This document shows, in pieces, positions 5,451-37,151 of a stretch of DNA of 55,814 nucleotides. Position numbers and translations under genes: made by a program. Positions within the stretch are counted from its first letter, which is position 1. Every line of letters starts with the position of its first letter. Source of the DNA: Chloroflexota bacterium (lineage in GTDB: Bacteria > Chloroflexota > Dormibacteria > CF-121). A model generated the notes under the pieces. The model was not told the origin of the DNA, searched no databases, and saw nothing but the letters and a program-made list of their open reading frames with translations. The stretch is taken from assembly GCA_005889345.1 (NCBI GenBank), contig VBFR01000185.1, positions 1 to 55,814 of the forward strand. The letters are read 5' to 3'.

Positions 5451-5514
5451 CAAAACTCGCCGCTGAAACCGACCGTCCGCCTGCGGGCGGAATGATCCCG
5501 TGCCGAGGGAGGGT

Positions 5515-8500
5515 GTGAGGCTACACGTACGTCGCCGGCTCGAGCTGCCGGCTTGTACCCCGAGTTTTCTGCTGCGCGCCGCCTTGAAGTACGGGGTCGG
5601 CCTGGGCGTGGCTGCCGCCGTGCTCACGGCCGGCGGCGTCGACCGGGTTCAGCCGAACGGGCACGCGCTGGCGCTGAACGTCCTGCCCACCAACGTCCCC
5701 TGCGGTCCGATCGCCACCGATGCCGGTGACCCGCACACCGCCACCTGGACGGCCGTCAGCAGCCCCTATGGGACGGGTAGCACCTACAACTTGCCGGTGA
5801 ACGCCACGAACAATCCCGACCCCAACGTGGTCTCCTGCACGGCGATCATCGTGCCGGCGGACGTCACGCTCAAGATCGATGCCAGCCAGGGTCCTGTGCA
5901 CATCTCCTCGCATGGCGCAGCCATCAAGGTCGACGGGGGCCATCTTCTCGTGCTGGGCGCGAGTGAAACCAACTCGGTCCTTTTCGACGCGGAAGCCGAC
6001 GTTTCATCGTGGGACGGCATCGTCATCGACGCCAGCGACCCCAGCCATCGTGGCAATGCGTCGGTCGCCTATGCCAGCATCCAAAACGCGGTCAACTCGA
6101 TCACGATCAACAGCGGTGCGACCTCTACGCCTGACCCGACCAACCTGAGCTCGCAGCTGCCCTACGGTCTCGCGCTGGTCAATAGCGGCATTGGCCCTTC
6201 TTACTTCGACGGCATCGACGCCATCAACACGCCCGTGATCGTCAAGGGGCGGACTGACCTCTTAACGGGTCGGGCGGACGGCAAGTTTGGAACCGTGAAC
6301 AACATCGGCTCCCAGGGCATCAAGGTGACGTTCGACGCGGCCGCACCCGCCGTCACGGCAAATGCCCTCGACATCGAGAGCGTCACTTTCGGGAGTTCGG
6401 TGCCATTCGCCGCGACCGGCTGTTTGCCGTTACAGCTGCCGTGCTCGGCCGGCTTCATCGGGAATGACGCGATCCTCGCCGCCTTTACCACGTCGAATCC
6501 ACCGCCGGTGCTCATCAGCCAGAGCCGCTTCTATCGGGCCGGCTCTTTTGGCGTCGAGCTGAACGGCCCCCACGGCCCGGTCATCACCGACAACAACTTC
6601 GACTGCAACGGCACCGGTTCCCCCAAGCCGACACAAACCTGCGTGGGGGCCGGCCTCAAGTACTCGGCGATCTACCTCAACGGCGCAACCGTCGACCTGG
6701 AGAACAGCGTCACCAACAACGTTGGCCACGAGGACGGCCTCGATGCCATCGTCCTCAACGGCACCGTCGCGTTCGGCCCCAGCACGAGCCAGAAACTGAA
6801 CTGGAAAAACGCGACGAATGACGCAACGACCGATCACCTGCTCGGCTGCCTCTTGAACGGCGACCTCAACCTCAATAGCGGAACCTTGGTCGTGCCCGGT
6901 GGCAGTTTCGTGAAGTCGAAGGGGACGATCAATCTCACGGGAGCGGCGCTCAGTGCTGGTGATTCAGGCGCCAAGGTCTTTACCAGCCTTCGCGACAACG
7001 TCAACATCGCGAGCTGCCCATCCGTCTTCGTCCAGTCGTGTCCCGCGCCATTGCCGGCAGGCGAATGGGGCGGCATCAACCTCGTTGGTTCGCAGACCGA
7101 CGCGGCCATGCGGAACGCGACCACGGGCACTATCAACAACGCCTCCATCCTTTACGCGACCACCGGCGTCCATATCGTCAACGGCAATTCGCTGACCATC
7201 AGCGGCAGCAACAACCTCAGCGCCATCGGACCGACCTTCGCCGACGGTGTGCTCGCCGAGGGCACGCCGCTTGCCGTCACCGGTACGACGTTTGGCTGCC
7301 CGACGGGCGTCTGCAGTGGACCGAGCAGTGGCAACCACGGCATCCTCGCGGACTACCGCAATAGCGGACCCCCGACCACCGGACTGACGATCGGCGGGCC
7401 GAATGCCGCGACCGACCGGAACACCTTCCAGGGCAGCGTCAACGAAGCCATCCGCGGTGTGGGTCTTGCCGGCCAGCCGGTCGACATCGAGAACAATGCG
7501 ATCCAGAACGCGGGCGGGGCTGGGACGGCGGGCAGTGCCGGCGTCTACCTGCAGGGTGCCGACAACCTGACCCTCAAGAACAACGATGTCGTCGGGAGTG
7601 GCACGGGAAACCTGCATTACCCCGCCATCTGGCTGGACGGGGTCAGCCATGCCGACTTCAACGGCCCGATCGGCGGCAACACCGGCTTCGCCGACGGTCT
7701 CAACGCGATCGCGTTCCACGGCGACAGCAAGGCACTCGCCTGGCAAACGGTCGCCGCCGGCGGCCCGCTGGGTTACATCCTCGACGGCAACCTGCTGGTC
7801 GCGGGGAATCTGACGCTGGCCAATGGTGACTACGCCACGGTTCTGGCCGGCACGGTCACCGTCCAGGGCACCCTGACGTCGACCGGCGCCGTCTTGACCA
7901 GTCTCAAGGAGATGACCGTGCCGGCCCCGAGCTGCGGATCGGTCTTTGTCCAAAGAGCCTCCGGGGTCTGCCCGGCTACGACCGCGGGCGATTGGGGCGG
8001 CCTCGTCCTCAATCCCGGGAGCACCAACCGCATGACGAATTCCGGGATTCGGTACGCCGCGACCGGGATCTCGATGGGCATGCCAACCGGGACCCGCCTG
8101 GCACAAAACCTGACGCTGACCAACACCAGCATCAGCAACGCCGCGGCTGACGGGGTCAGCACGCGCTCCCCGGTGTCGATCACCGGCGGTGCCTTTACGA
8201 ATAACGCGTCCCACGGGATCAACATCGACCTGAGAAACGTCACCGCGAGCGCTTCCCAACCGGTCTCGATTTCGGGTACGACGATCGCCAGCAGCGGGCA
8301 GGACGGCATCATTGCCGTCGGGCTCACCGGCCAGACGGTGCAGATCGATCAGGCGAGTATCGACCACGCCGGCGCCTTCGGCATCAACCTGAAAGACGCG
8401 GATCATCTCACGCTGACGAACAACACCGTCACGAATTCTGCGGCCTCCTTCCCGGCGATCTACCTGAATGGATTCTCCGGGCTAATGGCCAACGTCGACG

Positions 8501-11500
8501 GCAACAAAGGCGCCTTCAATGGCGTTGACGCGATTGCCTTCCACGGCGCGGTCACCGGCGACCTGCCCTGGATCACGGCGCGCAAGACCAGCGACCCGGC
8601 GACGCCGCTCGGCTACATCCTCGACAACACGCTGACGATGCAGTCACCCCACACCCTGACGGTGAAGGCTGGTGACATCGTGAAGGTTGGCAACGGCGGC
8701 GTCCTCAACCTTGTGGGGGCCAACCTTCGTGCCGACGATACCGGTGGGAGCAGTCAGAAAGTCTTCACCAGCCTGACGGACGACAGCGTGGGTGTCGCCA
8801 CCTGCCACTCGGTCATCGTCAACACCTGTCCGGCCGCGGCCCAACCCGGCGACTGGGGCGGCATCACGCTGACGGGTGGTACGGCGAACGGGGCGCTCGT
8901 CAACGCCGCGGTTCGCTACGCCTCCACGGGCATTCTGATCACGAGCGGGGCGTCATCGACGTCGGGATCGTCGGTCTTCGGCCTCGTAGTGTCGGGGAGC
9001 AGCATCGGGCCCAGCGCCGTCGATGGCATCAATGCCGTGAAGACGGCCATCGCGGTCACGACCTCATCGATCAGCGGTGGCGCGCACGGCATCAGCGTCG
9101 ACTTCAGCGGCGGAGTGCCGAGCACGCCGGTGCGTCTCAGCGGCAACCGGTTCGCGTCCACGAGCGCCGAGGCCATCGTCGGCCGGGCGCTCGCTGGACA
9201 GCCGGTCTGGATCAGCGATAACCGGATTCGGGCCGCCGGTACCTACGGGATCCGGCTGCTCAATGCCGACCAGCTCGTCCTGCGAAACAACAACGTTACC
9301 GCCAGCGGCGGTGGCCCTGCCGCGGGAGCCGGCCGTTATCCCGCCATCTACCTGCCGGCGGTCTCAGCAGATTTCGCCACGAACATTCGAGGCAACATGG
9401 GGAGCGGAAACGGCCTGGATGCCCTCGTGTTTGACGGCAAGGTCAACCGCGACCTGGCCTGGATCACCGCGAGCAACACGGCATCGACGCATCCACTCGG
9501 ATACCTGTTGGACGGCGGCTTGACCCTCCAGGGAGGAAACCTGCTGGTCGGTGCAGGTGACGTCGTCAAGTCGCTCGGTGGACCGATCACGATCAATGGG
9601 GGCAAGCTGATCGCGAATGGCACGGTAACCGGCGGATCGCCGACCAGCCGCAGCGCCATCTTCACCAGCCTGAAAGACAATCCCATCGCGCCGGTCTTGC
9701 CGGTTGACACCTCGGATGCCGCTGCCGTCTCGTGTCCTTCCGTTCTGGTCGCCGTCTGCAATCCCGGACCCGGCGATTGGGGCGGGTTGGTGATCACCAG
9801 CAATGCCGCCGGCGATAAAGGGCGCGCCGACATCACCTACGGCGTCATCAATTACGCCAACACCGGGATCTCCCTGGATAGTGGGCCCATTCCCGCCAAT
9901 CCAGAGCAGGTGCCCGCCAACTTCAGGCTGTCCGTCGCCAATACGACGATCAGCAATGCGAGCAAGGACGGCATCAATAGTCTCGATACGCCGTTTTCGG
10001 TGACCAATTCCAGCCTGGTCCAAAACGTTGGCGCCAACGGGATCATCGCCAGCTTCTTTAGCCCGGCGAACTGTTCGTCGACGATAACCGTGGGCACGTG
10101 CATCCGGCTCAACGTCACGACGACCACGGTCACTGGCGCCGGCAAGGATGGCATCATCGCCAACGGCCTCTCCGGACAACCGACGGTCGTCACTGGCAAC
10201 ACGGTCACCGATGCCGGGACCTACGGCATTCGCCTCGTCGGCGCCGATAAGCTCACACTGACGACCAACCACGTGCGCAAATCGGCTCTACCGCCGTCGA
10301 CGGCATTGCGCTACCCGGCCATCTATCTGAGCAGTGTCAAGGCCGATTTCGAGGTCAGCGGCGCGGGAAGCGTCATTCAGGGCAACGACGGAAAGTGGAA
10401 CGGGCTCGACGCGATCGTGTTCCACGGCGAGGCGACGAACAACCTGACGTGGATCACCGCCGTCGCCTCGGCCGGGACCGACGTGGCGTTTGGGTATCTC
10501 CTGGACGGGCCGCTGACCGTGGATGGTGACCTGACGACCAATGAAGGCGACATCGTCAAGATCATGAACGGCGGAATCAAGATCAACGGCGGCAGCTTGC
10601 AAGCCCTGGGCACGTACCTGGGTACGACCTTTACCAGCCTGAAGGACAATCCGGGGCTGCCCGCCTGTCATTCCGTCTTCATCCCGGACCCGTGCCCAGT
10701 GCTGCCGGCAACGCTGGCGACGAACACCGACTGGAATGGGATCAACATCGACGCGTCGAATAGCGTGTTCAACAAGGGCAGGCTGCTCTACGCAACTGCC
10801 GGCCTGAGCATCACCAACGCGAAGCTCGATGTGAGTGGGGCAACGTTCTACAAGCTGAACGGAACGGCGCTTTCGAGCACAGGAATTCAGCCACTGACAG
10901 TCACGTGTTCGAGCATCCGGGGGAACGGCACGGGGGTCGCCGCTGACTACGGAACGATCAGCCAGAGCGATGTCTACGGCAATTCCGTCGCTGATCTCGC
11001 CGGAAATGCGAACCTTCACGCCGACGCCGACTGGCTTGCCGCCTCGCCGAAGATCACCGGAGCGGTTGCAGTAAGCGGCGCACTCGCCGCCCAACGCCCA
11101 GTGGCGACTTTGACCCTGACGGGTGACAACCAGCTGGCGAACGACCAGTTCGGAAACAAGGCCTTCGGCATCGGCCACATGACGCTGACAGCCGACATGA
11201 ACCGCCAGGCGAACACCTCGGTTGCGCCGCTCGTCGAGTTCACTCCTCCGCCTGGCCCGCCGACGACGCTGACGGGTTTGCTCAACAATGGCTGGACGAC
11301 GGGCCAGGAGTGGTCGCCCAACCCGTACGCGCTCGACCTCGCGCATGCGAGTGCCGGGCTGGACAGTGTCAAAGTGAGCGGAGCCCGCGGCTGTGTCCCG
11401 CCCGAGATCGACGATCCGGTTGCCAACCTCAACAACCCGGACAGCAACCTCGTGACGCCCGCAAGCAAGCCATTCAGCGCATCCATCCTGCCGACGACGC

Positions 11501-12747
11501 TGGTTCCGTCGGCGGCCAACGGCACCTATGGTGGCAAGGCGACGCTTGTGGCTCATCTCACCTCCAACGGCGTCGACCTGGCAAACCAAACCGTCAGCTT
11601 CAAGCTCAACGGATCGACGGCCGGCACCGCCACCACGGGAGGCAACGGTATCGCGACCGTGCTCGCCAGCCTCGGAACGATCAATGCCGGGTCGTACCCT
11701 GTCGGTTTCCAGGCGAGTTATGCCGGCGACCCCAACCTCTTCTACACACCCGCGCCCGCCGCTCTGGGGACCCCGATAGCCACGACGCTGACGGTAGCCC
11801 AAGCACCCACCGCAACCACGCAGGCCGCCACAACGGCGAGCTCGACCGTCTACGGCCAGTCGATCACCTTGAGTGCCAAGGTGACGACGACCGTCGCCGG
11901 CGGCATCGACCCCGGTGTCGCTGATGGGACGGTGGCGTTCACCGAGGGCGCCACCACGATCTGCTCGGCCGCGCTGGGGACGGGGACCACGACCAACGAG
12001 GCGGCCTGCACCCTGAAGACGGTGCCGGTTGGCGCGCACAGCATCACGGCCGTCTTCACCGCGACGCTCGCCGGCAATTTCCAGGGCAGCACCGCCGCCA
12101 GTACCCTGAGCCAGACCGTCAGCATTGCGCCCACAACGACATCGACCGCCGCCAGCGACCATAACGCGAGTACCTATGGCCAGTTGGTCACGCTCAGCGC
12201 CACGCTGACGTCGGCAAACCTGAACCCTGGAGCGGGTGAAGGGGCGGTGGCCTTCAAAGAAGGAGCTACGACCATCTGCAGCGCCGGCCTGGGGACCGGG
12301 GGTGCGCTGAACAAGGCGGCCTGCGCGGTGAGCACGCTAAATGTGGCGACCCACACGATCACCGCCGTCTATACGGCGACCGGCGGTAACTTCCAGGACA
12401 GCACCGCGGCGGCGACGCTGAGCCAGGTGGTCAACGCGGCGGCGACGCAAACAGCGACCGCCAGTAGCGACATCAACCCGAGCGCGTTCGGCCAGATGAT
12501 CACGCTCAGCACCACCGTGACGTCGGTATTCGCCGATCCGGGCGTTGGTGACGGCACGGTCACTTTCATGGAGGGCGCCACGACGCTCTGCACCGCTGGC
12601 CTTGGATCGGGAGCCGCAAGCAACCAGGCGGCCTGCGGCATCAACACCCTGAGCGCGGGGAGTCACACCATCAGTGCTGTCTTCACTGCTGCGGGTGCCA
12701 ACTACAACGGCAGCGCCGCCGGCAACCTGACCCAGACCGTGAACTAG
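5515..12747 (+). CDS. Giant secreted parallel beta-helix / Ig-like repeat protein
   Basis: About 2,410 residues. GTG 5515 is preferred over the track's GTG 5500 because 'GAGGGAGG' sits just before it. An Arg-rich start then a hydrophobic stretch (~30-45, 'YGVGLGVAAAVLTAGG') forms a signal sequence. Residues to ~1,900 are right-handed beta-helix repeats rich in Asn, Gly, Thr ('LTLTNNTVTNS'-type rungs), organised in five modules of about 280-330 residues, each with 'GLDAI.FHG', 'PLGYILD', a 'GDIVK' motif and a C-x-S-V...C-P pair. Four Ig-like domains close the protein, the last three near-identical in plan with 'YGQ.ITLS' and one Cys pair each. No LPXTG or C-terminal membrane anchor is seen. 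Likely extracellular adhesin or carbohydrate-active surface protein; no catalytic motif was recognised. Confidence 0.8.
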   Translation: MRLHVRRRLELPACTPSFLLRAALKYGVGLGVAAAVLTAGGVDRVQPNGHALALNVLPTNVPCGPIATDAGDPHTATWTAVSSPYGTGSTYNLPVNATNNPDPNVVSCTAIIVPADVTLKIDASQGPVHISSHGAAIKVDGGHLLVLGASETNSVLFDAEADVSSWDGIVIDASDPSHRGNASVAYASIQNAVNSITINSGATSTPDPTNLSSQLPYGLALVNSGIGPSYFDGIDAINTPVIVKGRTDLLTGRADGKFGTVNNIGSQGIKVTFDAAAPAVTANALDIESVTFGSSVPFAATGCLPLQLPCSAGFIGNDAILAAFTTSNPPPVLISQSRFYRAGSFGVELNGPHGPVITDNNFDCNGTGSPKPTQTCVGAGLKYSAIYLNGATVDLENSVTNNVGHEDGLDAIVLNGTVAFGPSTSQKLNWKNATNDATTDHLLGCLLNGDLNLNSGTLVVPGGSFVKSKGTINLTGAALSAGDSGAKVFTSLRDNVNIASCPSVFVQSCPAPLPAGEWGGINLVGSQTDAAMRNATTGTINNASILYATTGVHIVNGNSLTISGSNNLSAIGPTFADGVLAEGTPLAVTGTTFGCPTGVCSGPSSGNHGILADYRNSGPPTTGLTIGGPNAATDRNTFQGSVNEAIRGVGLAGQPVDIENNAIQNAGGAGTAGSAGVYLQGADNLTLKNNDVVGSGTGNLHYPAIWLDGVSHADFNGPIGGNTGFADGLNAIAFHGDSKALAWQTVAAGGPLGYILDGNLLVAGNLTLANGDYATVLAGTVTVQGTLTSTGAVLTSLKEMTVPAPSCGSVFVQRASGVCPATTAGDWGGLVLNPGSTNRMTNSGIRYAATGISMGMPTGTRLAQNLTLTNTSISNAAADGVSTRSPVSITGGAFTNNASHGINIDLRNVTASASQPVSISGTTIASSGQDGIIAVGLTGQTVQIDQASIDHAGAFGINLKDADHLTLTNNTVTNSAASFPAIYLNGFSGLMANVDGNKGAFNGVDAIAFHGAVTGDLPWITARKTSDPATPLGYILDNTLTMQSPHTLTVKAGDIVKVGNGGVLNLVGANLRADDTGGSSQKVFTSLTDDSVGVATCHSVIVNTCPAAAQPGDWGGITLTGGTANGALVNAAVRYASTGILITSGASSTSGSSVFGLVVSGSSIGPSAVDGINAVKTAIAVTTSSISGGAHGISVDFSGGVPSTPVRLSGNRFASTSAEAIVGRALAGQPVWISDNRIRAAGTYGIRLLNADQLVLRNNNVTASGGGPAAGAGRYPAIYLPAVSADFATNIRGNMGSGNGLDALVFDGKVNRDLAWITASNTASTHPLGYLLDGGLTLQGGNLLVGAGDVVKSLGGPITINGGKLIANGTVTGGSPTSRSAIFTSLKDNPIAPVLPVDTSDAAAVSCPSVLVAVCNPGPGDWGGLVITSNAAGDKGRADITYGVINYANTGISLDSGPIPANPEQVPANFRLSVANTTISNASKDGINSLDTPFSVTNSSLVQNVGANGIIASFFSPANCSSTITVGTCIRLNVTTTTVTGAGKDGIIANGLSGQPTVVTGNTVTDAGTYGIRLVGADKLTLTTNHVRKSALPPSTALRYPAIYLSSVKADFEVSGAGSVIQGNDGKWNGLDAIVFHGEATNNLTWITAVASAGTDVAFGYLLDGPLTVDGDLTTNEGDIVKIMNGGIKINGGSLQALGTYLGTTFTSLKDNPGLPACHSVFIPDPCPVLPATLATNTDWNGINIDASNSVFNKGRLLYATAGLSITNAKLDVSGATFYKLNGTALSSTGIQPLTVTCSSIRGNGTGVAADYGTISQSDVYGNSVADLAGNANLHADADWLAASPKITGAVAVSGALAAQRPVATLTLTGDNQLANDQFGNKAFGIGHMTLTADMNRQANTSVAPLVEFTPPPGPPTTLTGLLNNGWTTGQEWSPNPYALDLAHASAGLDSVKVSGARGCVPPEIDDPVANLNNPDSNLVTPASKPFSASILPTTLVPSAANGTYGGKATLVAHLTSNGVDLANQTVSFKLNGSTAGTATTGGNGIATVLASLGTINAGSYPVGFQASYAGDPNLFYTPAPAALGTPIATTLTVAQAPTATTQAATTASSTVYGQSITLSAKVTTTVAGGIDPGVADGTVAFTEGATTICSAALGTGTTTNEAACTLKTVPVGAHSITAVFTATLAGNFQGSTAASTLSQTVSIAPTTTSTAASDHNASTYGQLVTLSATLTSANLNPGAGEGAVAFKEGATTICSAGLGTGGALNKAACAVSTLNVATHTITAVYTATGGNFQDSTAAATLSQVVNAAATQTATASSDINPSAFGQMITLSTTVTSVFADPGVGDGTVTFMEGATTLCTAGLGSGAASNQAACGINTLSAGSHTISAVFTAAGANYNGSAAGNLTQTVN
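6736..10760 (+). repeat. Five diverged beta-helix modules within the giant protein
   Basis: The 'GLDAI/GLNAI/GVDAI' motif recurs at about 6736, 7696, 8521, 9412 and 10399, each followed by 'LGYILD' or a variant, 'FTSL.D', and a cysteine pair before 'GDWGGI'. Spacing is about 825-990 bp. Divergence is high, so the duplications are old. Confidence 0.7.
11811..12744 (+). repeat. Three tandem Ig-like domains (about 315 bp each)
   Basis: Units begin near 11811, 12131 and 12445. Each reads 'YGQ..TLS', 'PG.G.G.V.F.EGATT.C', 'AAC' and 'HTI.AV.TA', with two Cys expected to form one disulfide per unit. A fourth, more distant Ig-like unit (11490-11800) precedes them. Confidence 0.7.
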
Positions 12748-27536: not shown

Positions 27537-27569
27537 GAATCCCATGAAGCTCGGTTGCACGGTGCACCC

Positions 27570-28847
27570 ATGATCGCTCCGTCGCCGGTGCGTCAGGCGA
27601 TCCGGCCGGCGGCCCGCCGCCCGATCACGCCGGTGCGCTGGCTCGGTCGAGCATGGCGCGAGCTGCGGAAGATGCGGACCGCGATCATCCTGCTCGCCAT
27701 CCTGGCGCTGTTGGCGGTCATCGGCACGCTCCTCCCGCAGCTGCCGCAGAACCCGCGCGGCGTGATGGGCTACGTCCTGCGCCATCCGGCGAGTGCTCCC
27801 TGGTTCGCCCGGCTTGGTCTCTTCGACATCTTCAGCTCCTGGCCGTTCATCATCACCGCGGTTCTCATGTACACCTCGATTGGGGCGAGCATGTTCATCC
27901 GCGTGCCCGCCGCCTGGCGGCGCGTGATGGACCCGGCGCAGCGCAACCGGGGGCTTTTTGCCGAGATCGCGAGCATCGTTTTCCACGCGAGCTTCTTCAT
28001 CCTGCTGGTGGGCGTCATCTACGGCAAGGCGGCCGGGTTCGTCGGCAATGCCGCGGTGGTGGAGGGGGACAGCTTCGTCGAAGCCCGCGCGAACTATGAC
28101 AACCTGAGTGAGGGGAAGCTGGCCAGCAAGCACGCGGGCTTTCAAGTCAAGGTCGATCGCTTCAGCGCCAGCTTCTGGCCCACGGGCGCGCCAAAGGACT
28201 TCACCTCCCAGGTCCGTATCTACGACGGCGGTCGGCTGGTCGACACGAAGAGCATCCAGGTCAACCACTACGTCGAGTACCGGGGCGTGAAGATCTACCA
28301 GGCGGGCTACGGCTGGGCGCCGACACTGCGCATCGAATCCCCCGACGGCCGGGTCCTCGAAGACGTGGCGACCATCTTCGTCGGCGATCCCCAGTTCGCG
28401 AACGGCGTGATCAAGGTCCCCTCCGCCGGACCACCCCCGGAGCAGCTGGGCGCGACGGCGATCTTCATGCCCGATCCGCAGATCGTCAACCAGTCGATCG
28501 CGCCGGGCACGCCCCAGCTCAAAAACCCGATCCTGCTGGTCCGGCTCTTCCGGGGTGACCTGCACCTGACCCAGCCCCAGAACGTCTTCGCGCTGGACAC
28601 CAGCAACATGGACCTCCGCTGGCGGGGGGCGCTCCGGGTCGGGGACAGCGTCGTCACCCCCGACGGCTACAAGCTGAGCTTCACCGGGTTGAAGGCCTAC
28701 ACCGATCTGACCCTCAACAAGGATCCGGGGATTCCCATCGTGCTGGCGGCCTTCGTGATCGGGCTCGGCGCCCTGCTTATCAGCCTCTACCTGCCCCTGA
28801 TGGGCCCGGAACAGCGGCTGTCGCCACCCCGGGAGCTCACCGGCTAA
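27570..28847 (+). CDS. resB: ResB-like cytochrome c biogenesis protein
   Basis: A 425-residue protein. ATG 27570 is preferred over the track's TTG 27555. Three N-terminal membrane helices (about 30-50, 75-95, 140-160) are followed by a large extracytoplasmic domain and a final helix ('VLAAFVIGLGALLISLYLPL'), the ResB/Ccs1 plan. The conserved 'YRGVKIYQAGYG' element is present. ResB works with ResC/CcsA to deliver and attach haem to cytochrome c outside the membrane. No ccsA-like partner follows; it sits 33 nt after nuoN, so it is probably the last gene of the nuo transcript. Confidence 0.8.
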   Translation: MIAPSPVRQAIRPAARRPITPVRWLGRAWRELRKMRTAIILLAILALLAVIGTLLPQLPQNPRGVMGYVLRHPASAPWFARLGLFDIFSSWPFIITAVLMYTSIGASMFIRVPAAWRRVMDPAQRNRGLFAEIASIVFHASFFILLVGVIYGKAAGFVGNAAVVEGDSFVEARANYDNLSEGKLASKHAGFQVKVDRFSASFWPTGAPKDFTSQVRIYDGGRLVDTKSIQVNHYVEYRGVKIYQAGYGWAPTLRIESPDGRVLEDVATIFVGDPQFANGVIKVPSAGPPPEQLGATAIFMPDPQIVNQSIAPGTPQLKNPILLVRLFRGDLHLTQPQNVFALDTSNMDLRWRGALRVGDSVVTPDGYKLSFTGLKAYTDLTLNKDPGIPIVLAAFVIGLGALLISLYLPLMGPEQRLSPPRELTG

Positions 28848-28886: not shown

Positions 28887-29474
28887 ATGACCAGAGTGAA
28901 TGGTCCCAACGGCAGGGATCGGAAGCGCTGGCGCGGCCCCATGCTGGAAGGCGTGCCGGGCCACCGTTTTTCCTATTCCAAAGGGCAGGCGATCGTCGAA
29001 ACGGCGCTGCTGCTGCCGATCCTGATGTTGCTGGTTATGGGCAGCGCCGATTTGGGCCGGGTCTTCTACTACGCCATCGCCGTCACCAACTCCGCCCGCG
29101 AGGCGGCCCGGCAGGGGACGTATTGGGATCCGACTTCCAGCAGCAACGCCTACGATAGCTACGCTCAGGTTCTGGCCGCGGCACAGGAGGAGGTGCCGAG
29201 CGACGTGACGCTTAGCCTCCCCACGAGCACCCCCTCGCACTGCCTGACCGGCGCACCCGCGAGCTGGTCGATCTACTACCCCACGCAGCCAAACACCGGC
29301 TACGTGTTCATTTGCTTCGACGGCAACGACAGCCAGTCGACGGCCGCGACGCAGACGATTCAGGTGATCATCCTCTACAACTTCTCGCCGGTGACCCCGC
29401 TGGCACAGGTCGTCGGCGCCAGCCTCATCCAGGTCGAAGCGGCCACGACGATGCAGGTGCAAAAGCAACAATGA
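28887..29474 (+). CDS. TadE-like pseudopilin (cassette 1, first copy)
   Basis: A 195-residue protein with a basic N-terminus and the TadE signature 'KGQAIVETALLLPILMLLVMGSADLGRVFYY' in one transmembrane helix at ~32-55, followed by 'ITNSAREAARQGTY'-type sequence. The Glu five residues into the hydrophobic stretch is the conserved pseudopilin Glu. The outside domain has Cys in 'SHCLTG' and 'YVFICFDG'. Starts 39 nt after resB. Overlaps the next TadE gene by 4 nt (ATGA). Confidence 0.8.
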   Translation: MTRVNGPNGRDRKRWRGPMLEGVPGHRFSYSKGQAIVETALLLPILMLLVMGSADLGRVFYYAIAVTNSAREAARQGTYWDPTSSSNAYDSYAQVLAAAQEEVPSDVTLSLPTSTPSHCLTGAPASWSIYYPTQPNTGYVFICFDGNDSQSTAATQTIQVIILYNFSPVTPLAQVVGASLIQVEAATTMQVQKQQ

Positions 29475-29995
29475 AGCGCAGGCAGCGGGGTCAGACGCTG
29501 GTCGAGATGGCGATGATCGCGCCCTTCCTGATCATGATCCTGCTGGTGATGATCGACTGCGGCCGCGCCGCCTACGCCTATTCCACGCTGGCCGGCGCGA
29601 CGCGCGATGGCGCCCGGGCCGCGGTCACCACCGGCAGCAACCGGCCCGACAATTCCTGGGTCGTTGGGGCCGTCAAGCAGAATGCCTTCGGCGTTCAGCT
29701 CAGCCCGGCGACCTGTATCAATGACGCGCCGCCGGCGAGTCCCAGCATGGCGCCCAACACGGGGCTCGTCTACGTCGGGGCGGGGAGCGGCAACACGACC
29801 ACCAACGCCCCTGCCGGCCAGCCGCCGGCCGCTGCCCTGGGAAGCTGTGAGGCGGTGATTCCCAGCTACGCCGGTCACCACGCGCTGGCGGTCACCATCA
29901 AATACAATTTCCAGCCGCTGACGCCATTCGGCTCGCAGTTTTTCCCGGGTGGGATCGTCATGACTGTTACCAGCACCATGAGCACCGAGTATTGA
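29471..29995 (+). CDS. TadE-like pseudopilin (cassette 1, second copy)
   Basis: A 174-residue TadE-type protein: 'RGQTLVEMAMIAPFLIMILLVMIDCGRAAYAYS' then 'ATRDGARAAV'. The extracytoplasmic domain ends 'TPFGSQFFPGGIVMTVTSTMSTEY'; the same ending, in diverged form, closes the fourth TadE gene (32099-32644), which shows that the cassettes are duplicates. Confidence 0.8.
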   Translation: MKRRQRGQTLVEMAMIAPFLIMILLVMIDCGRAAYAYSTLAGATRDGARAAVTTGSNRPDNSWVVGAVKQNAFGVQLSPATCINDAPPASPSMAPNTGLVYVGAGSGNTTTNAPAGQPPAAALGSCEAVIPSYAGHHALAVTIKYNFQPLTPFGSQFFPGGIVMTVTSTMSTEY

Positions 29996-31455
29996 TGCAC
30001 GCATCCTGGTTGCGAAAGCAGTCAGGGCAGGCGGTTGTCCTCGTCGCCGTCGCGGTGGTGGTGCTGACCGCGATCCTGGCGCTCGCGTTGGACGGTGGGG
30101 GGATCTATCTCGATCGGCGACAGATCCAGAACGCCGCGGACTCGGCCGCGCTGGCGGGGGCGGAGCTGCTGATGGCGATACCGCCCAGTTATCCGGGCAT
30201 CCACAACCAGGCGATCGGGAACCTCGTCAAGAATCTCCCGGGCACGAGCACCGCGGGGACCGTGTGCAGCGCCTCGTGCCCGAACCAGCCGACGGTCGGC
30301 TTCCCGAGTGGCGGGCTCGGCACGCTCAATTTGGGCGCGGGCTACTACGCCGAGCTGTCCGTGACCAACTCATACACCTACCTCGCCGTCGTCTGGCACA
30401 TCCACCAGGTGGCGGTGGCCCCGATCCACGGCTTCCAGTCGACGATGACACTGCAGGCCCGCGCGGTGGCGCAGAACGCGAACCTGCCTTACGCGGTCGT
30501 GGCCTTGCAGGACAAGCCGGCGAATTCGCAATATCACAACCTCAACATCTCAGCATCGACCGCGGTCCTCGGGCTGCAGGGTGGTGGCGGCCCGAGCGCG
30601 CGCGGGGGTGTCTTTTCCAACGCGGGCATCGACCCGGGTAACGGCATCCCCGCGATCACCTTCAGTCCGGCGGGCAACGCCGGTGATCTCTGGGCGGTCA
30701 ACGAACCGAACGGCGACCAGTCCCTCTTGAACGCCGCCGGCCGGGTGACGGGGCAGCAGACAGCGGGAACCCTACCTCGGCTCGCATCGCACCTCGACTT
30801 GCCGAGCTATCCGGAGCCCGCACCGCCAGCGGCCAGCTTCAATGGCAGTACCGTGGTCAATGGAACGGCGTACCTGTGCCCCGGTCAATACACCAACCAG
30901 ATCAACGTGCAGAGCGCGGGGACGGCAATCCTGTTTCCCGGCGTCTACAAGGTGCAGGCAGGGGGGGTCAACGTCCAGGGGACGCTGCGGACGCTGACGA
31001 ACGCCGATCTGCCGATCTCCGGCTGCGGCCAGACGCTGACCTCGGGCGCGGACCTTGGCGCCATTGTCGAGATCAAACCGGACAACTTTGGCGGCAGCAC
31101 CCGCTGCGACAAGAACCCGTTCACGGTGGGGAGCAGCGCCACGTTCACGCTCACCCCGTCCCTCAACTACTTCAATATCAACGTCTACATCGAGACCTAC
31201 TCGGCAGCCTGGCAGACTGTTTGCACAACCCAGCCTCTCGGCACGAACGTCCTCCAATTTTCGTCGGGAGCCTGCTACAACATCAGCGGCGCAATCTATG
31301 GCCCGGCCGACAACATGATCATGGGCACGAGCAGCGCCTGCGGGACGACGGTCGGCCAGGTGATCGCCTGGACGCTGACGGTGAACGGCAGCGGCACGCT
31401 CAACGCCAACTTCAGCGCCAACCGGTTGCCCTACATCAAGGGCCTGACCCAGTAG
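29995..31455 (+). CDS. TadG-like protein (cassette 1)
   Basis: A 486-residue protein; ATG 29995 overlaps the stop before it and is preferred over TTG 29992. The N-terminus 'SGQAVVLVAVAVVVLTAILALALDGGGIYLDRRQIQNAADSAALAGA' (read in pieces) is the TadE/G-like (PF13400-type) membrane helix and signature. The ~430-residue outside domain is beta-rich with Gly/Asn turns, 'LCPGQY' and 'ISGAIYGPADNMI', and ends 'LPYIKGLTQ'. Membrane-anchored with an extracytoplasmic domain; probably works with the two TadE-like partners upstream. Confidence 0.8.
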   Translation: MHASWLRKQSGQAVVLVAVAVVVLTAILALALDGGGIYLDRRQIQNAADSAALAGAELLMAIPPSYPGIHNQAIGNLVKNLPGTSTAGTVCSASCPNQPTVGFPSGGLGTLNLGAGYYAELSVTNSYTYLAVVWHIHQVAVAPIHGFQSTMTLQARAVAQNANLPYAVVALQDKPANSQYHNLNISASTAVLGLQGGGGPSARGGVFSNAGIDPGNGIPAITFSPAGNAGDLWAVNEPNGDQSLLNAAGRVTGQQTAGTLPRLASHLDLPSYPEPAPPAASFNGSTVVNGTAYLCPGQYTNQINVQSAGTAILFPGVYKVQAGGVNVQGTLRTLTNADLPISGCGQTLTSGADLGAIVEIKPDNFGGSTRCDKNPFTVGSSATFTLTPSLNYFNINVYIETYSAAWQTVCTTQPLGTNVLQFSSGACYNISGAIYGPADNMIMGTSSACGTTVGQVIAWTLTVNGSGTLNANFSANRLPYIKGLTQ

Positions 31456-31559
31456 CAGTCACGGTCCCGTCACCCGTACAACGATCGCGTAACAAACGGG
31501 CGCGCCGCTTGAGGACGAGCCCGGCGTAAGAGTCGGCGTAGGAACCCGTCACTAAGGTT

Positions 31560-32099
31560 GTGACCGTGCGTCGTATCCTGCCAACCAAGCGTGCCCAGGC
31601 GATGGTCGAAATGGCGCTCATGGCACCGGTCCTGTTCTTGATGGTGCTTGGCGCCACCGACCTTTCGCAACTCTTTTACTACTCAACGTCGATCACGAAT
31701 GCGGCTCGAGAAGGCGCGCGCCAGGGTGCCTACTACGACCCGATGACCTTCCCCGGGGGAAACACGTACGCCACGGACGCAGCCGTCTACTCGGCCGTGA
31801 ACGCGGAAGCCTCCTACCTGAACTTGTCCGAGCCGTGCCATCCGAACACGATCTGCAGCGGAAGTCTGACGAACTGCCCCAGTTATCCCTATGCGAACGC
31901 GCTGTATCCGCCGACATCGGCGCCGAACACCGGCTACGTGTTCGTTTGCTTCAACAACTCGACGACCGCGACCACCGCGACGGTGGGCCAGCCGATTCGG
32001 ATCACGATCCTCTATAGCTTTCAGCCGGTGACACCGCTGATCGGCAGCATGGTCCACTCCGCCGCCAGCACTGAGATCCTGACCCAGGGGAACGGCTGA
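31560..32099 (+). CDS. TadE-like pseudopilin (cassette 2, first copy)
   Basis: A 179-residue protein from GTG 31560. TadE signature 'RAQAMVEMALMAPVLFLMVLGATDLSQLFYY' then 'ITNAAREGARQGAYYDP', closely matching the gene at 28887. 'APNTGYVFVCFNN' mirrors 'QPNTGYVFICFDG'. The 104-bp gap from cassette 1 shows no clear promoter. Confidence 0.8.
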   Translation: MTVRRILPTKRAQAMVEMALMAPVLFLMVLGATDLSQLFYYSTSITNAAREGARQGAYYDPMTFPGGNTYATDAAVYSAVNAEASYLNLSEPCHPNTICSGSLTNCPSYPYANALYPPTSAPNTGYVFVCFNNSTTATTATVGQPIRITILYSFQPVTPLIGSMVHSAASTEILTQGNG

Positions 32100-32644
32100 T
32101 GCGCCGGCCGAAGAAGCGGGCCCAGGCGATGATCGAGCTGGCGATGCTGGCGCCGATGATCTTCATGCTGCTGATCTTTGTCTTCGATCTCGCTCGAGCC
32201 GCAGCCACCTGGGCCGCGATTTCCGAAGCGGTACGAGAAGGATCGCGCACGTCCGTGACCATCGGCCAGACGACGGCAGCCACCGACTACGCCATCATCG
32301 GCAACACGCAGGCATTCGGCGTCAATCTGAGCATCAGCCCGGTGACCGGTTGTGTCCATGGCCACACTGCCGGCATGGTCACGCCGCCGCCGGCGATCGG
32401 AAACACCGGCTACATCTACATCCTGTCCACCGTGGCCGGGCAACCGAACGCGCCCTCGGGCGGGGCGGGCTACGCCGAGACCGTCAACGCCGGCTGCAAC
32501 GCGATCACGGCTGCCGGGCTCGGCCGATACCCGCTCAAAGTCGTGATCGCCTATAACTATCAGCCCTTTACGCCGTTTGCCTCGCAATTCATGCCGGGTG
32601 GCATCACGATGATCGCAAGCAGCACGATGAGCACGGAGTTCTAA
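32099..32644 (+). CDS. TadE-like pseudopilin (cassette 2, second copy)
   Basis: A 181-residue protein with 'RAQAMIELAMLAPMIFMLLIFVFDLARAA' and 'AVREGSRTSV'. Its ending 'TPFASQFMPGGITMIASSTMSTEF' is the counterpart of the 29471 gene. TGATG overlap with the gene before it. Confidence 0.8.
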   Translation: MRRPKKRAQAMIELAMLAPMIFMLLIFVFDLARAAATWAAISEAVREGSRTSVTIGQTTAATDYAIIGNTQAFGVNLSISPVTGCVHGHTAGMVTPPPAIGNTGYIYILSTVAGQPNAPSGGAGYAETVNAGCNAITAAGLGRYPLKVVIAYNYQPFTPFASQFMPGGITMIASSTMSTEF

Positions 32645-32646
32645 CC

Positions 32647-34167
32647 ATGATCATGTCCAGCTATCGCCGTCGCAAGCTCGCTGGTCAGGCGCTGGTCATC
32701 TTCGCCCTGGCGATCATGGCCATCACGGGCCTGCTCGTGATCGCGGTTGATGGCGGCTCGATCTACCTCGACAAGCGGCGGATGCAGAATGCCGCGGATG
32801 CCGGGGCGCTCGCCGGGGGCGACGCCGCCGAGGCGCTGCCCTTGCGGAGCTACTCCGTCCCGCACCAGGCGGCGCTCAACGAGATCTATCACAACCTGTT
32901 CCCGGGAACCACCGTGCCCACCGTGCCCGGCGCGGCCGGCGCGACCTACACGACCACGGCGTTCTCCGGCACCTATCAATTCATCCTGACGGCGGACGTG
33001 GCCAATGTCCAGCAGGACACCTACCTGGTGGTCATCAACCATGCCTACAACTTCTTTGCCGCCCAGGCGATTGGCTTCGGGTCGTCAACCTGCATTCTGG
33101 GTGGCACGACGACCACCAACGCCGTCTGCCTGCAGGCCCACGCCAAGGCGCTCGCCGCCACCTACCCGTTCGCGTTGATCCTGCTTAACGACGAAATCCT
33201 GAACTACGAAAACCTCTCGATGAACGGCTCGAACGCCAAGCTGGTGCTCCACGACGGCGGGAGCAAGGGTGGCGCCTTCTCCAACGAGAGCATGAACGCC
33301 GGTAACGGCAGCATTTACTTCAACCCCTGCGGCACGTCGGGCGACCTCTGGGCCGCCAACGAGAGTGTCGCTGGCACCGGCAATATCCCCGGCCACAGCT
33401 GGGGACACTACGGGGACGGCGCCACCTATCCGACGTGCACTGCAAACACTCTGTACACGCCCTATCCGAAGAACACCGTCAAGATCCCGTTCCCCAGCTA
33501 CCCCGAACCGGCCGTAACCGGCCCCACCTATTCGCCTGCCTTGACGGCGTCGGGTGGCACCTACTATCTCTGTCCGGGCACCTACCAGGGAACGCTGAGC
33601 GAGAGCAGCCCCGGATCGACGGTCATCATGTATCCCGGGGTCTATCGCTTCACGGCCCCGATCGCCATGACCCTGACGGGTGGGACCATTCGCGGGGCCG
33701 TCGCCACGGACTACCCGATCCCGGGAGCGGCGGTCGCGATCAACTGCACCGGTTACAACACCAGCAGCGCGCCGGCGGACCTGGGCTTGATCATCGAACT
33801 CAAGGCCGCGGACTGTACCACGAACACCTTCAAGGTGGCCGGCGGGTCGACCACCATCACCTTCCGGCCGTCGCCGAGATACAACAACATCAGCTTCTAC
33901 ATCGAGTTGCTCGCCCCCTACCCAGGGCTGGGATGCTCATCGTCCACGCCCAACGGAACCCACGTCGTCAACATCTCCGGCTCGGCCTCGCTCAATATCT
34001 ACGGCGCCTTCTACGGCCCGGGCGACAACATGTTCTTCTGCGGCAACGGCGCCGGATACGGAGTCGGCCAGATCGTCGCCTGGACGATGATCCTGTGTGG
34101 TAACGGCACCGTGGACGAGCATTACAACCCGGCCTACCTGCCCTACTTCCGTGGCCTGATCCAGTAG
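32647..34167 (+). CDS. TadG-like protein (cassette 2)
   Basis: A 506-residue counterpart of the 29995 gene: N-terminal 'AGQALVIFALAIMAITGLLVIAVDGGSIYLDKRRMQNAADAGALAGG' (in pieces), a beta-rich outside domain with 'LCPGTY', 'MYPGVYRF' and 'IYGAFYGPGDNMF', and the ending 'LPYFRGLIQ'. Tandem ATG codons at 32647 and 32653 leave a two-residue uncertainty in the start. Confidence 0.8.
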   Translation: MIMSSYRRRKLAGQALVIFALAIMAITGLLVIAVDGGSIYLDKRRMQNAADAGALAGGDAAEALPLRSYSVPHQAALNEIYHNLFPGTTVPTVPGAAGATYTTTAFSGTYQFILTADVANVQQDTYLVVINHAYNFFAAQAIGFGSSTCILGGTTTTNAVCLQAHAKALAATYPFALILLNDEILNYENLSMNGSNAKLVLHDGGSKGGAFSNESMNAGNGSIYFNPCGTSGDLWAANESVAGTGNIPGHSWGHYGDGATYPTCTANTLYTPYPKNTVKIPFPSYPEPAVTGPTYSPALTASGGTYYLCPGTYQGTLSESSPGSTVIMYPGVYRFTAPIAMTLTGGTIRGAVATDYPIPGAAVAINCTGYNTSSAPADLGLIIELKAADCTTNTFKVAGGSTTITFRPSPRYNNISFYIELLAPYPGLGCSSSTPNGTHVVNISGSASLNIYGAFYGPGDNMFFCGNGAGYGVGQIVAWTMILCGNGTVDEHYNPAYLPYFRGLIQ

Positions 34168-34178
34168 CGGTCCATCCT

Positions 34179-34184
34179 TAGAAT
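34179..34184 (+). promoter_or_regulatory. -10 element TAGAAT upstream of the DMT gene
   Basis: TAGAAT overlaps the annotated ATG 34183 and ends 7 nt before an in-frame GTG (34192). This is the same -10 to GTG spacing seen at 13244-13257, and suggests a leaderless GTG start. Confidence 0.35.
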
Positions 34185-35100
34185 GGCGGGCGTGCCCGCC
34201 AGTAATCGAAGTGCGGCGGGCGTGGCGCTCGTCATCGGCTCGGCATGTTGCTTCGGATCACTCGGCGTCTTCGGCAAGCTCGCCTACCGGCTCGGGCTGA
34301 CCACGCCGCAGCTGCTCAGTTATCGGTTCGCGCTGGCCGCGCTGATGCTCTGGTTGGCCACCGCGGTCACGCGACAGGGCTTGCCGCCGCGACGTAGTCT
34401 CGTCGGTCTCGCGATCATGGGCGGTGCCGGCTACGTCGGCCAGTCGGCGGCCTATTTCAGCGCCCTGCACTTCATCCCGGTGTCGACCACGGCCCTGCTG
34501 CTCTACACCTTTCCCGTGGTCGTCACCTTGCTGGCGACGCTTCTTTTCCAGGAGCCGCTCGGCTGGACAAGGATCGTAGCCGTGGCCCTGGCGTTCATCG
34601 GCACGATGCTCGTGGTGCAGGCGCAACTGACGGCTGCGCCGCCGATCGGCATCATCCTGGGACTGACGTCCGCGGCCGTCTACTCGGGCTACATCCTTCT
34701 TGGAAGCCGGCTGCTCCCCGGGATCCCGCCTGTTTCAGCGACCGCCACTATCGCGACCGCCGCCGCGATCGTGTGGAGCGGATTCGCGGCCGCAACCGGC
34801 CAGCTGATGGTGAATTGGACGCCCTCACGAGCGGCGCTCCTCATTGCCTTTGCGGTGATCGCGAGCACCATCCCGATCCTGGCATTCATCCTGGGTCTCC
34901 GGCTGATCGGGGCATCCCGCGCTGCCATTCTCAGCACCTTCGAGCCGGCGAGCAGCGTGCTGCTCGCGGTCCTCGTCCTGGGTGAAGCAGCCAATCCCAT
35001 CCAATATCTCGGCGGCGCATTCATCCTGGCATCCGTTGTGGTGCTCGAAGGCCAGGGCTGGCTCGCTTCGCGGGCGCTTGCGCAGGCGACGCGGGAGTAG
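34183..35100 (+). CDS. DMT-superfamily (EamA) transporter
   Basis: A 305-residue inner-membrane protein with ten predicted helices in two EamA halves. First half begins 'GVALVIGSACCFGSLGVFGKLAY', second half 'GIILGLTSAAVYSGYILLGSRLL'. 'STTALLLYTFPVVVTLLATLLFQEPLG' and 'RAAILSTFEPASSVLLAVLVLGE' are the helix 4/9 family signatures. Probably exports metabolites or amino acids; substrate not predictable. The start may be GTG 34192 rather than ATG 34183, shortening the protein by three residues. Confidence 0.85.
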   Translation: MAGVPASNRSAAGVALVIGSACCFGSLGVFGKLAYRLGLTTPQLLSYRFALAALMLWLATAVTRQGLPPRRSLVGLAIMGGAGYVGQSAAYFSALHFIPVSTTALLLYTFPVVVTLLATLLFQEPLGWTRIVAVALAFIGTMLVVQAQLTAAPPIGIILGLTSAAVYSGYILLGSRLLPGIPPVSATATIATAAAIVWSGFAAATGQLMVNWTPSRAALLIAFAVIASTIPILAFILGLRLIGASRAAILSTFEPASSVLLAVLVLGEAANPIQYLGGAFILASVVVLEGQGWLASRALAQATRE

Positions 35101-35763: not shown

Positions 35764-35840
35764 GCCCCCTTAGCTCAGTGGACCAGAGCGGGTGCCTTCT
35801 AAGCACTAGGCCGCAGGTTCGAATCCTGCAGGGGGCACCA
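35764..35840 (+). tRNA. trnR: tRNA-Arg (anticodon UCU), CCA encoded
   Basis: Folds into a complete cloverleaf of 77 nt: acceptor GCCCCCT/AGGGGGC, D stem GCTC/GAGC, anticodon stem GGTGC/GCACT with one G-T pair and loop CTTCTAA (anticodon TCT, reads AGA), T arm GCAGG-TTCGAAT-CCTGC, and a genomically encoded CCA. Its 3' end lies directly against the IS481-type element and its last 12 nt are repeated at 37204. Confidence 0.95.
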
Positions 35841-35951: not shown

Positions 35952-37151
35952 ATGCTGGCCGGCATGAGGGACATGAGCGTGACTGAGCAGCGGTATCAGG
36001 CCGTGTTGGACGTGATCGGGCAGGGCCGGGCGGTGATGGAAGTGGCCAGCCAGTGGGGGGTGAGCCGGCGGACGGTGGAGCGCTGGTTGGCTCGCTACGA
36101 GGCCCAGGGACTGGAGGGCTTGCCCGACCGTTCGCATCGGCCGGAGCGGTGTCCGCACCAGATGCCCGCCGAAATGGAAGTCATGGTGCTCGAACTACGC
36201 CGGGCGCATCGCTACTGGGGCGCTCGGCGCCTGGTCCTGGAGCTGGTTCGCAAAGGGATCATGCCGACACCTTCGGAATCGGCAGTGTACCGGTGCCTGG
36301 TGCGCGCCGGCGTCATCGACCCGGTGAAACGTCACCGACGGAGGGAGATGTGGAAGCGGTGGGAGCGCGGTGGACCAATGGAGCTCTGGCAGCTGGACGT
36401 GGTGGGCGGCTTCCTGCTGGCGAACGGCACCTCGGCAAAGGCCCTGACCGGGGTCGACGACCATTCCCGGTTCTGCGTGTCGGCCCGCCTCATGCCGCGC
36501 GAAGGAACCCAGCTGGTTTGTGATGGTTTGCTGAGCGCACTACGTACCCATGGCGTGCCACAGCAGGTTCTCACTGACAACGGCAAGGTCTTCACCGGCA
36601 AATACTCGAAGCCGCCCGTCGACGTGCTCTTTGACCGGATCTGTCGCGAAAACGGCATCGACCATCTCCTCACCCAGCCGGCCTGTCCCACCACCACTGG
36701 CAAGATTGAGCGCTTTCACCGTACCCTGCGTCTCGAGTTCGACACACGGCGGGCATTCGCCAGCCTGGCGGTGGCCCAGCAGGCGCTCGACGAGTGGGTG
36801 ACGTACTACAACACCGAGCGGCCCCATCAGGCCTGCGGTGACAAGGCCCCCGTCAGCCGTTTTCATGTCGCGGCACGCACCCCGACGGAACCGGAGCCTC
36901 GGCCGGACCGCACCGGTGAGCACTGGGTCACGCGCAAGGTCAGTACCGTCGGCGTGGTCTGCGTCGGCTACCAGCAGGTTTGTATCGGCCAGAGCTATGC
37001 CGGCAGCGCCTGCGATGTCCTGCTCACTGATGGGACGCTGCAGTACTGGGTTGGCAATGAGCTGGTGAAGACGGTGGCCCGGGAAACGAAAGGCGAGATC
37101 CGCAAGAAGTACGCCGACGGAACCGCGCCCACCAGGGGAAGATCGCTTTGA
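35952..37151 (+). CDS. IS481-family DDE transposase
   Basis: A 399-residue protein. An N-terminal helix-turn-helix region ('GRAVMEVASQWGVSRRTVERWLARY') and a second HTH are followed by the rve integrase core: Asp in 'LWQLDVVGG', Asp in 'VLTDNGKVF' and Glu in 'TGKIERFHRTLR', so the DDE triad is complete. 'YYNTERPHQA' is the family C-terminal signature. ATG 35952 is taken; ATG 35964 is possible. The gene is uninterrupted and likely active. Confidence 0.93.
   Translation: MLAGMRDMSVTEQRYQAVLDVIGQGRAVMEVASQWGVSRRTVERWLARYEAQGLEGLPDRSHRPERCPHQMPAEMEVMVLELRRAHRYWGARRLVLELVRKGIMPTPSESAVYRCLVRAGVIDPVKRHRRREMWKRWERGGPMELWQLDVVGGFLLANGTSAKALTGVDDHSRFCVSARLMPREGTQLVCDGLLSALRTHGVPQQVLTDNGKVFTGKYSKPPVDVLFDRICRENGIDHLLTQPACPTTTGKIERFHRTLRLEFDTRRAFASLAVAQQALDEWVTYYNTERPHQACGDKAPVSRFHVAARTPTEPEPRPDRTGEHWVTRKVSTVGVVCVGYQQVCIGQSYAGSACDVLLTDGTLQYWVGNELVKTVARETKGEIRKKYADGTAPTRGRSL

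Follow-up and report, generated by a model that had tools for sequence, protein, structure and literature searches.

The window analysed here, contig C155 at its full length of 55,814 bp, belongs to a soil Chloroflexota MAG and encodes two consecutive TadE-TadE-TadG cassettes, which probably provide a single Tad machine, in trans, with alternative tip complexes of minor pilins. The genome contains seven such cassettes, five of them outside the window. Our reading draws on the gene content of the cassettes, on their prepilin motifs, on the correlated divergence of the three genes, on the lack of a local motor, on a motor locus that is devoid of tip genes, and on the occurrence of the same triplet inside complete tad loci of class relatives.

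The two cassettes and their products

All six open reading frames (ORFs) were found where the preliminary description had placed them. They are listed below by position in the window, with the two genes that flank them; a slash marks the prepilin site.

27555-28847, + strand: ResB-like gene (assigned by eye), outside the tip; bounds the variable cassette array on its left in relatives
28887-29474, + strand: TadE-A1, 195 aa, TadE/TadF-type minor pilin, prepilin motif KG/QAIVE
29471-29995, + strand: TadE-A2, 174 aa, second TadE/TadF-type minor pilin, RG/QTLVE
29995-31455, + strand: TadG-A, 486 aa, large minor pilin, SG/QAVVL, without Glu+5
31560-32099, + strand: TadE-B1, 179 aa, RA/QAMVE
32099-32644, + strand: TadE-B2, 181 aa, RA/QAMIE; TadF match weak (E 0.063)
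32647-34167, + strand: TadG-B, 506 aa, AG/QALVI, without Glu+5
34183-35100, + strand: EamA-type transporter gene, outside the tip; bounds the array on its right in relatives

Cassette A (28887-31455) and cassette B (31560-34167) are both tightly spaced internally, with an ATGA overlap at 29471 and stop/start overlaps at 29995 and 32099; a scan for promoters and terminators returned nothing above chance. Matches to PF07811 (TadE) in the four short ORFs (E 8.7e-14, 5.4e-15, 8.2e-14 and 2.7e-8) and to PF13400 (TadE/G-like N-terminus) in both long ORFs (E 2.5e-11 and 1.6e-10) exceed the gathering cut-offs in all six proteins. The cassettes had been described as matching one another gene by gene, and pairwise BLASTP bears this out, in order, with 42% identity between A1 and B1 (8e-37), 37% between A2 and B2 (7e-33) and 36% over 532 columns between TadG-A and TadG-B (1e-73); the shared endings STMSTEY/STMSTEF and GLTQ/GLIQ are likewise present. 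The best match of A1 is B1 (112 bits) and that of A2 is B2 (97 bits), while A1 and A2 match each other at only 38 bits. Because genes in the same position match far better than neighbours within a cassette, the triplet was evidently duplicated as one unit. To call the pair duplicated is therefore correct for the unit, but understates the case, since the pair belongs to a genome-wide and class-wide family. The reported absence of a motor, prepilin or secretin nearby was confirmed: genome-wide searches for T2SSE, T2SSF, Flp, prepilin-peptidase and secretin produced no match on the window contig.

Elsewhere in the window, positions 5500-12747 encode a protein of 2415 aa with a right-handed beta-helix, NosD-like, and four Big_3_5 (bacterial Ig-like) matches, which is probably a large surface or secreted protein. 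An IS481-type transposase (35952-37151) lies just downstream of tRNA-Arg(TCT) (35764-35840), and a congener, G003, has a related fragment at the corresponding place (L065, 5013-5231).

Around the prepilin site, Gln+1 and Glu+5 are present in all 75 TadE proteins checked, and TadG has Gln+1 with a residue other than Glu at +5 in 39 of 39 copies. In type 4 filaments, the subunit that caps the tip complex has no Glu5 (review, PMC10191384), and the missing Glu+5 of TadG is, judged from the motif, a putative signature of a tip-capping minor pilin. Pairwise distances for TadE1, TadE2 and the TadG N-terminus correlate across ten cassettes (Mantel r 0.73-0.77, p<0.001), and the three co-diversify from cassette to cassette. 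The AlphaFold2 model of TadE-A2 (pLDDT 69.5) has a long N-terminal helix followed by antiparallel strands. That of TadG-A is poor overall (mean pLDDT 54.6), with a pilin-like N-terminus and a better-predicted block of short strands at approximately residues 282-360 (pLDDT 84-91), a distal region that the model suggests to be beta-solenoid-like. Foldseek searches with the TadE and TadG models gave nothing significant, TadG returning just weak matches to beta-helix proteins (best E 0.6), and the TadG profile had no match among PDB sequences.

Cassettes, pilins and motor genes across the genome

The genome comprises 3.23 Mb in 306 contigs and is 88% complete; the close relatives found for it in the named collection are Chloroflexi MAGs from soil. 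Beyond the window, cassettes occur on C285, C249, C271 (in the order E-G-E), C194 and C185/C233. The last is very probably one cassette in two parts, because C185 starts with the end of a TadE1 gene (by eye) and C233 holds the matching start. Two diverged cassettes had earlier been taken to suggest alternative versions, and the total of seven lends weight to that suggestion.

TadG proteins of different cassette types are alignable mostly over their N-terminal 45-90 residues, although B also aligns with the C type (a third type found in relatives, see below) at the C-terminus and A aligns weakly with C over the full length. Within the window genome, full-length alignment was obtained only for A with B, C285 with C249 and C194 with C185, the others sharing mainly the N-terminus. 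Distal hypervariability of TadG between A and B was looked for and not observed; identity is 50% in the N-terminal helix and 37-45% in the distal region, against 30-33% in the pilin-strand and mid regions, and since pilin and distal parts have diverged about equally there is no sign of fast tip-domain diversification between these two.

A single canonical tad locus, flp-cpaB-tadZ-tadA-tadB-tadC, extends over two contigs joined by a 53-bp exact overlap. C38 carries genes for an Flp pilin, RcpC/CpaB, a response-regulator-TadZ, TadA, TadB and the start of TadC, which continues onto C287; past TadC, C287 encodes DUF192, ComF, a second TadA, HPF and SecA (named by eye). The same tad gene order is found on a single contig of G003 (L084), and there is no TadE or TadG gene in the main tad locus of either genome. 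The genome-wide search for tadABC thus places the motor elsewhere, as the preliminary description had thought possible. An assembly of this completeness and fragmentation could fail to show a further full tad locus; G003 argues against it.

A T4a pilus is encoded on C82. A hybrid locus on C115 (L045, 2641-12289) encodes a PrgI-TadZ fusion, a TraG/VirB4-like ATPase, TadA, TadB, TadC and RcpC, together with a 50-aa pilin-like ORF and its own TadE and TadG, and by gene content it mixes parts of a Tad pilus and of type IV secretion. One prepilin peptidase was found in the genome (C148). The search for secretin (PF00263) found none in the genome, and was positive in six of 14 control genomes.

Lone Flp-type pilin genes stand in unrelated neighbourhoods on C28, C226 and C32 (two identical copies), and matches below the curated cut-off occur on C89 and C181. 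Corresponding lone pilins are present in G003 on its contigs C14, C9, C34 and C37, and neighbouring genes match between the congeners for C28/C14 and C32/C34. Pilin genes, like the putative tip genes, are therefore dispersed around one main motor. On a 5.9-kb contig (L091), two Flp genes encoding an identical protein are inverted with respect to one another (4161-4340, + strand; 4697-4876, - strand), which may be a genuine inverted duplication or may come from the assembly; G003 has one copy.

Cassettes in related genomes

TadE is present in 41 of 41 sampled genomes of the class and in 95 of 151 genomes of the phylum. In a set of 13 genomes (the window genome and 12 of its better-assembled relatives), a T2SSF gene is found within 10 kb of 18 of the 59 TadE clusters. 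In G039 and G025, from two other genera of the class, a TadE-TadE-TadG triplet, encoded on the opposite strand, separates TadA from CpaB-TadB-TadC, the G025 locus being read by similarity only. The customary adjacency to a tad motor, which is lacking in the window, is therefore found in these genomes. The preliminary description had named a complete tad locus adjoining an orthologous cassette in relatives, a sign of ordinary pilus accessory genes, as the result that would refute it; the G039 and G025 loci largely supply that result, although their cassette is homologous rather than strictly orthologous.

These loci bear directly on whether the cassettes encode a motor-independent envelope or surface layer, made of Sec-exported, membrane-anchored TadE/TadG-like proteins with beta-rich ectodomains. 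Such a layer would agree with the absence of a motor from the contig and with the long, beta-rich ectodomains of TadG; we nevertheless regard it as unlikely, given that the cleavage motif with Glu+5 is universal among the TadE proteins checked, that Pfam and NCBIfam contain no surface-layer or anchoring domain matching any of the six proteins, that the same triplet lies with TadA, CpaB, TadB and TadC in tad loci of the class, and that co-diversification of three genes suits a small complex. The prepilin-type N-termini and the G039 and G025 loci leave both the cell-surface layer and the separate kind of surface assembly, as first proposed for the pair, without support.

Beside the tadEEG genes of G039 (C7; L081, 1630-6408), an ORF of 1592 aa joins a class III nucleotide cyclase domain and an AAA_16 ATPase to a TadA-type ATPase (T2SSE); TadA matches fall in similarly long frames of 1708 and 1691 aa in G025 (C20) and G019 (C31), which represent two other genera. 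From its domains, this fusion is a possible direct link between the pilus motor and cyclic-nucleotide signalling. At two further loci (L079, 9347-12651; L082, 4064-8202) one TadE pair is followed by two tandem TadG genes, so duplication can affect the large pilin alone.

The tips might instead be driven by another motor, that of the T4a pilus or of the hybrid Tad/T4SS locus, since both loci are present in this genome. The comparison of relatives makes this improbable. The hybrid locus is already provided with its own TadE and TadG. In G003 (95% complete, 50 contigs), none of the contigs that carry the four TadE clusters (five cassettes) has a T2SSF match, and T2SSF genes occur only in the T4a and main Tad loci. 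G036 has five TadE clusters, its sole T2SSF pair is of the Tad type and it has no T2SSE match of PilB strength, leaving the Tad motor as the common denominator. By elimination, we infer that the Tad motor is shared among the cassettes.

The history of the array was followed through those genus and family loci that could be read across the ResB end. In these, cassette A comes after the nuo genes and ResB wherever the contig includes them. Between A and the EamA transporter or a BTAD regulator there is nothing in G003; cassette B in the window genome and G010; a third type, C, in G001, G002, G008 and, from another genus, G016; C and then B in G004 and G012; and B with a further TadE pair in G011. 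Cassette A is thus fixed beside ResB in the genus, and the neighbouring B and C come and go. TadG-A identity is 63-87% in most congener loci, and cassette A also occurs in two further genera of the family, with TadG-A at 46% and 43%. TadG-A and TadG-B (36%) have diverged more than TadG-A has across genera, so the A-B pair is old and both members have been kept, and cassette B predates the genus.

It is very unlikely that the cassettes are decaying or redundant remnants of former tad loci without a present role, for although they are dispersed and motor-less, and TadG-A is broken in G010 and fused to TadE2 in G013, the six window ORFs are intact and closely spaced, A keeps its position in all congener loci read across the ResB end and persists in other genera, and B is older than the genus. 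In G010 the TadG-A frame is broken (L072, 4037-4954) and cassette B is retained. In G013, TadE2 and TadG-A form one ORF from which the N-terminal helix of TadG is missing (L060, 6676-8457; L075, 1492-3273), either a natural fusion or a misassembly. We set this fusion (L060) aside as a sign of physical contact, given that it comes from one MAG contig and may be misassembled.

Proposed alternative tips and known Tad systems

We propose that the products of each cassette, TadE1 and TadE2 (in the TadE/TadF role) with the large TadG, would assemble as a heterotrimer after processing by the prepilin peptidase, and that this trimer would start the Tad (Flp) filament and sit at its tip, where TadG, lacking Glu+5, would cap the filament and expose its distal beta-rich domain. 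TadA, TadB, TadC, TadZ, CpaB and the major pilin would be provided by the separate locus; because that locus has no tip genes, tips would be supplied in trans by the dispersed cassettes, and trans supply best explains the puzzle of cassettes with no pilus motor. The cassettes would then offer alternative tips, mutually exclusive or combinatorial, and their different TadG distal domains may make different contacts, perhaps by binding a ligand.

In Myxococcus xanthus, the Kil Tips (KilLMN 1-4) are four paralogous three-gene minor-pilin clusters, shown genetically to work in the arrangement proposed here, as interchangeable tips on one Tad-like pilus, and reported to be restricted to Myxococcota (Herrou et al. 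2025, PMC12075869). The window genome resembles this system in having several paralogous, co-diversifying three-gene minor-pilin clusters with a large third member of variable distal domain, in the position of most clusters away from the core machinery, and in possessing several Flp-type pilins. It differs in phylum, in having seven rather than four cassettes, in that no secretin (PF00263) was found, and in the predicted beta-solenoid-like distal region; the likeness proposed is one of function and not of membership.

Chloroflexales possess rcpC-tadZABC, tadEEG and flp genes (PMC7332563), and so the tadEEG order itself is already known. The window genome shares that order and the rcpC-tadZABC core set, but its tadEEG genes are multiplied and dispersed and its core locus lacks them. 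The Caulobacter proteins CpaJ-CpaK-CpaL, a predicted trimer at the Tad pilus tip (PMC12607857), are likewise two small and one large minor pilin, although CpaL has a vWA domain and Pfam detects none in TadG-A or TadG-B. A full-text search of open-licence PMC papers brought up no description of dispersed tadEEG cassettes from Chloroflexota, and the scale seen here, with seven dispersed cassettes, several lone pilins, one main motor and a site of gain and loss, appears to be unreported in that literature.

More tentatively, one motor may draw on single-gene Flp pilins and on tip cassettes, at least seven in number, that are spread over the genome, such that both filament and tip composition could be switched or mixed, in a larger and apparently separate counterpart of the Myxococcus system with a hotspot of gain and loss between ResB and EamA. 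Interchangeable Tad tips were shown only in 2025, in myxobacteria; if our proposal is true, their presence in a separate Chloroflexota lineage would make modular tip exchange a general design. In this class, surveys of tad loci that depend on genes being adjacent will overlook most tip genes, and the cassettes would provide a natural collection of tip domains for probing what Tad pili recognise.
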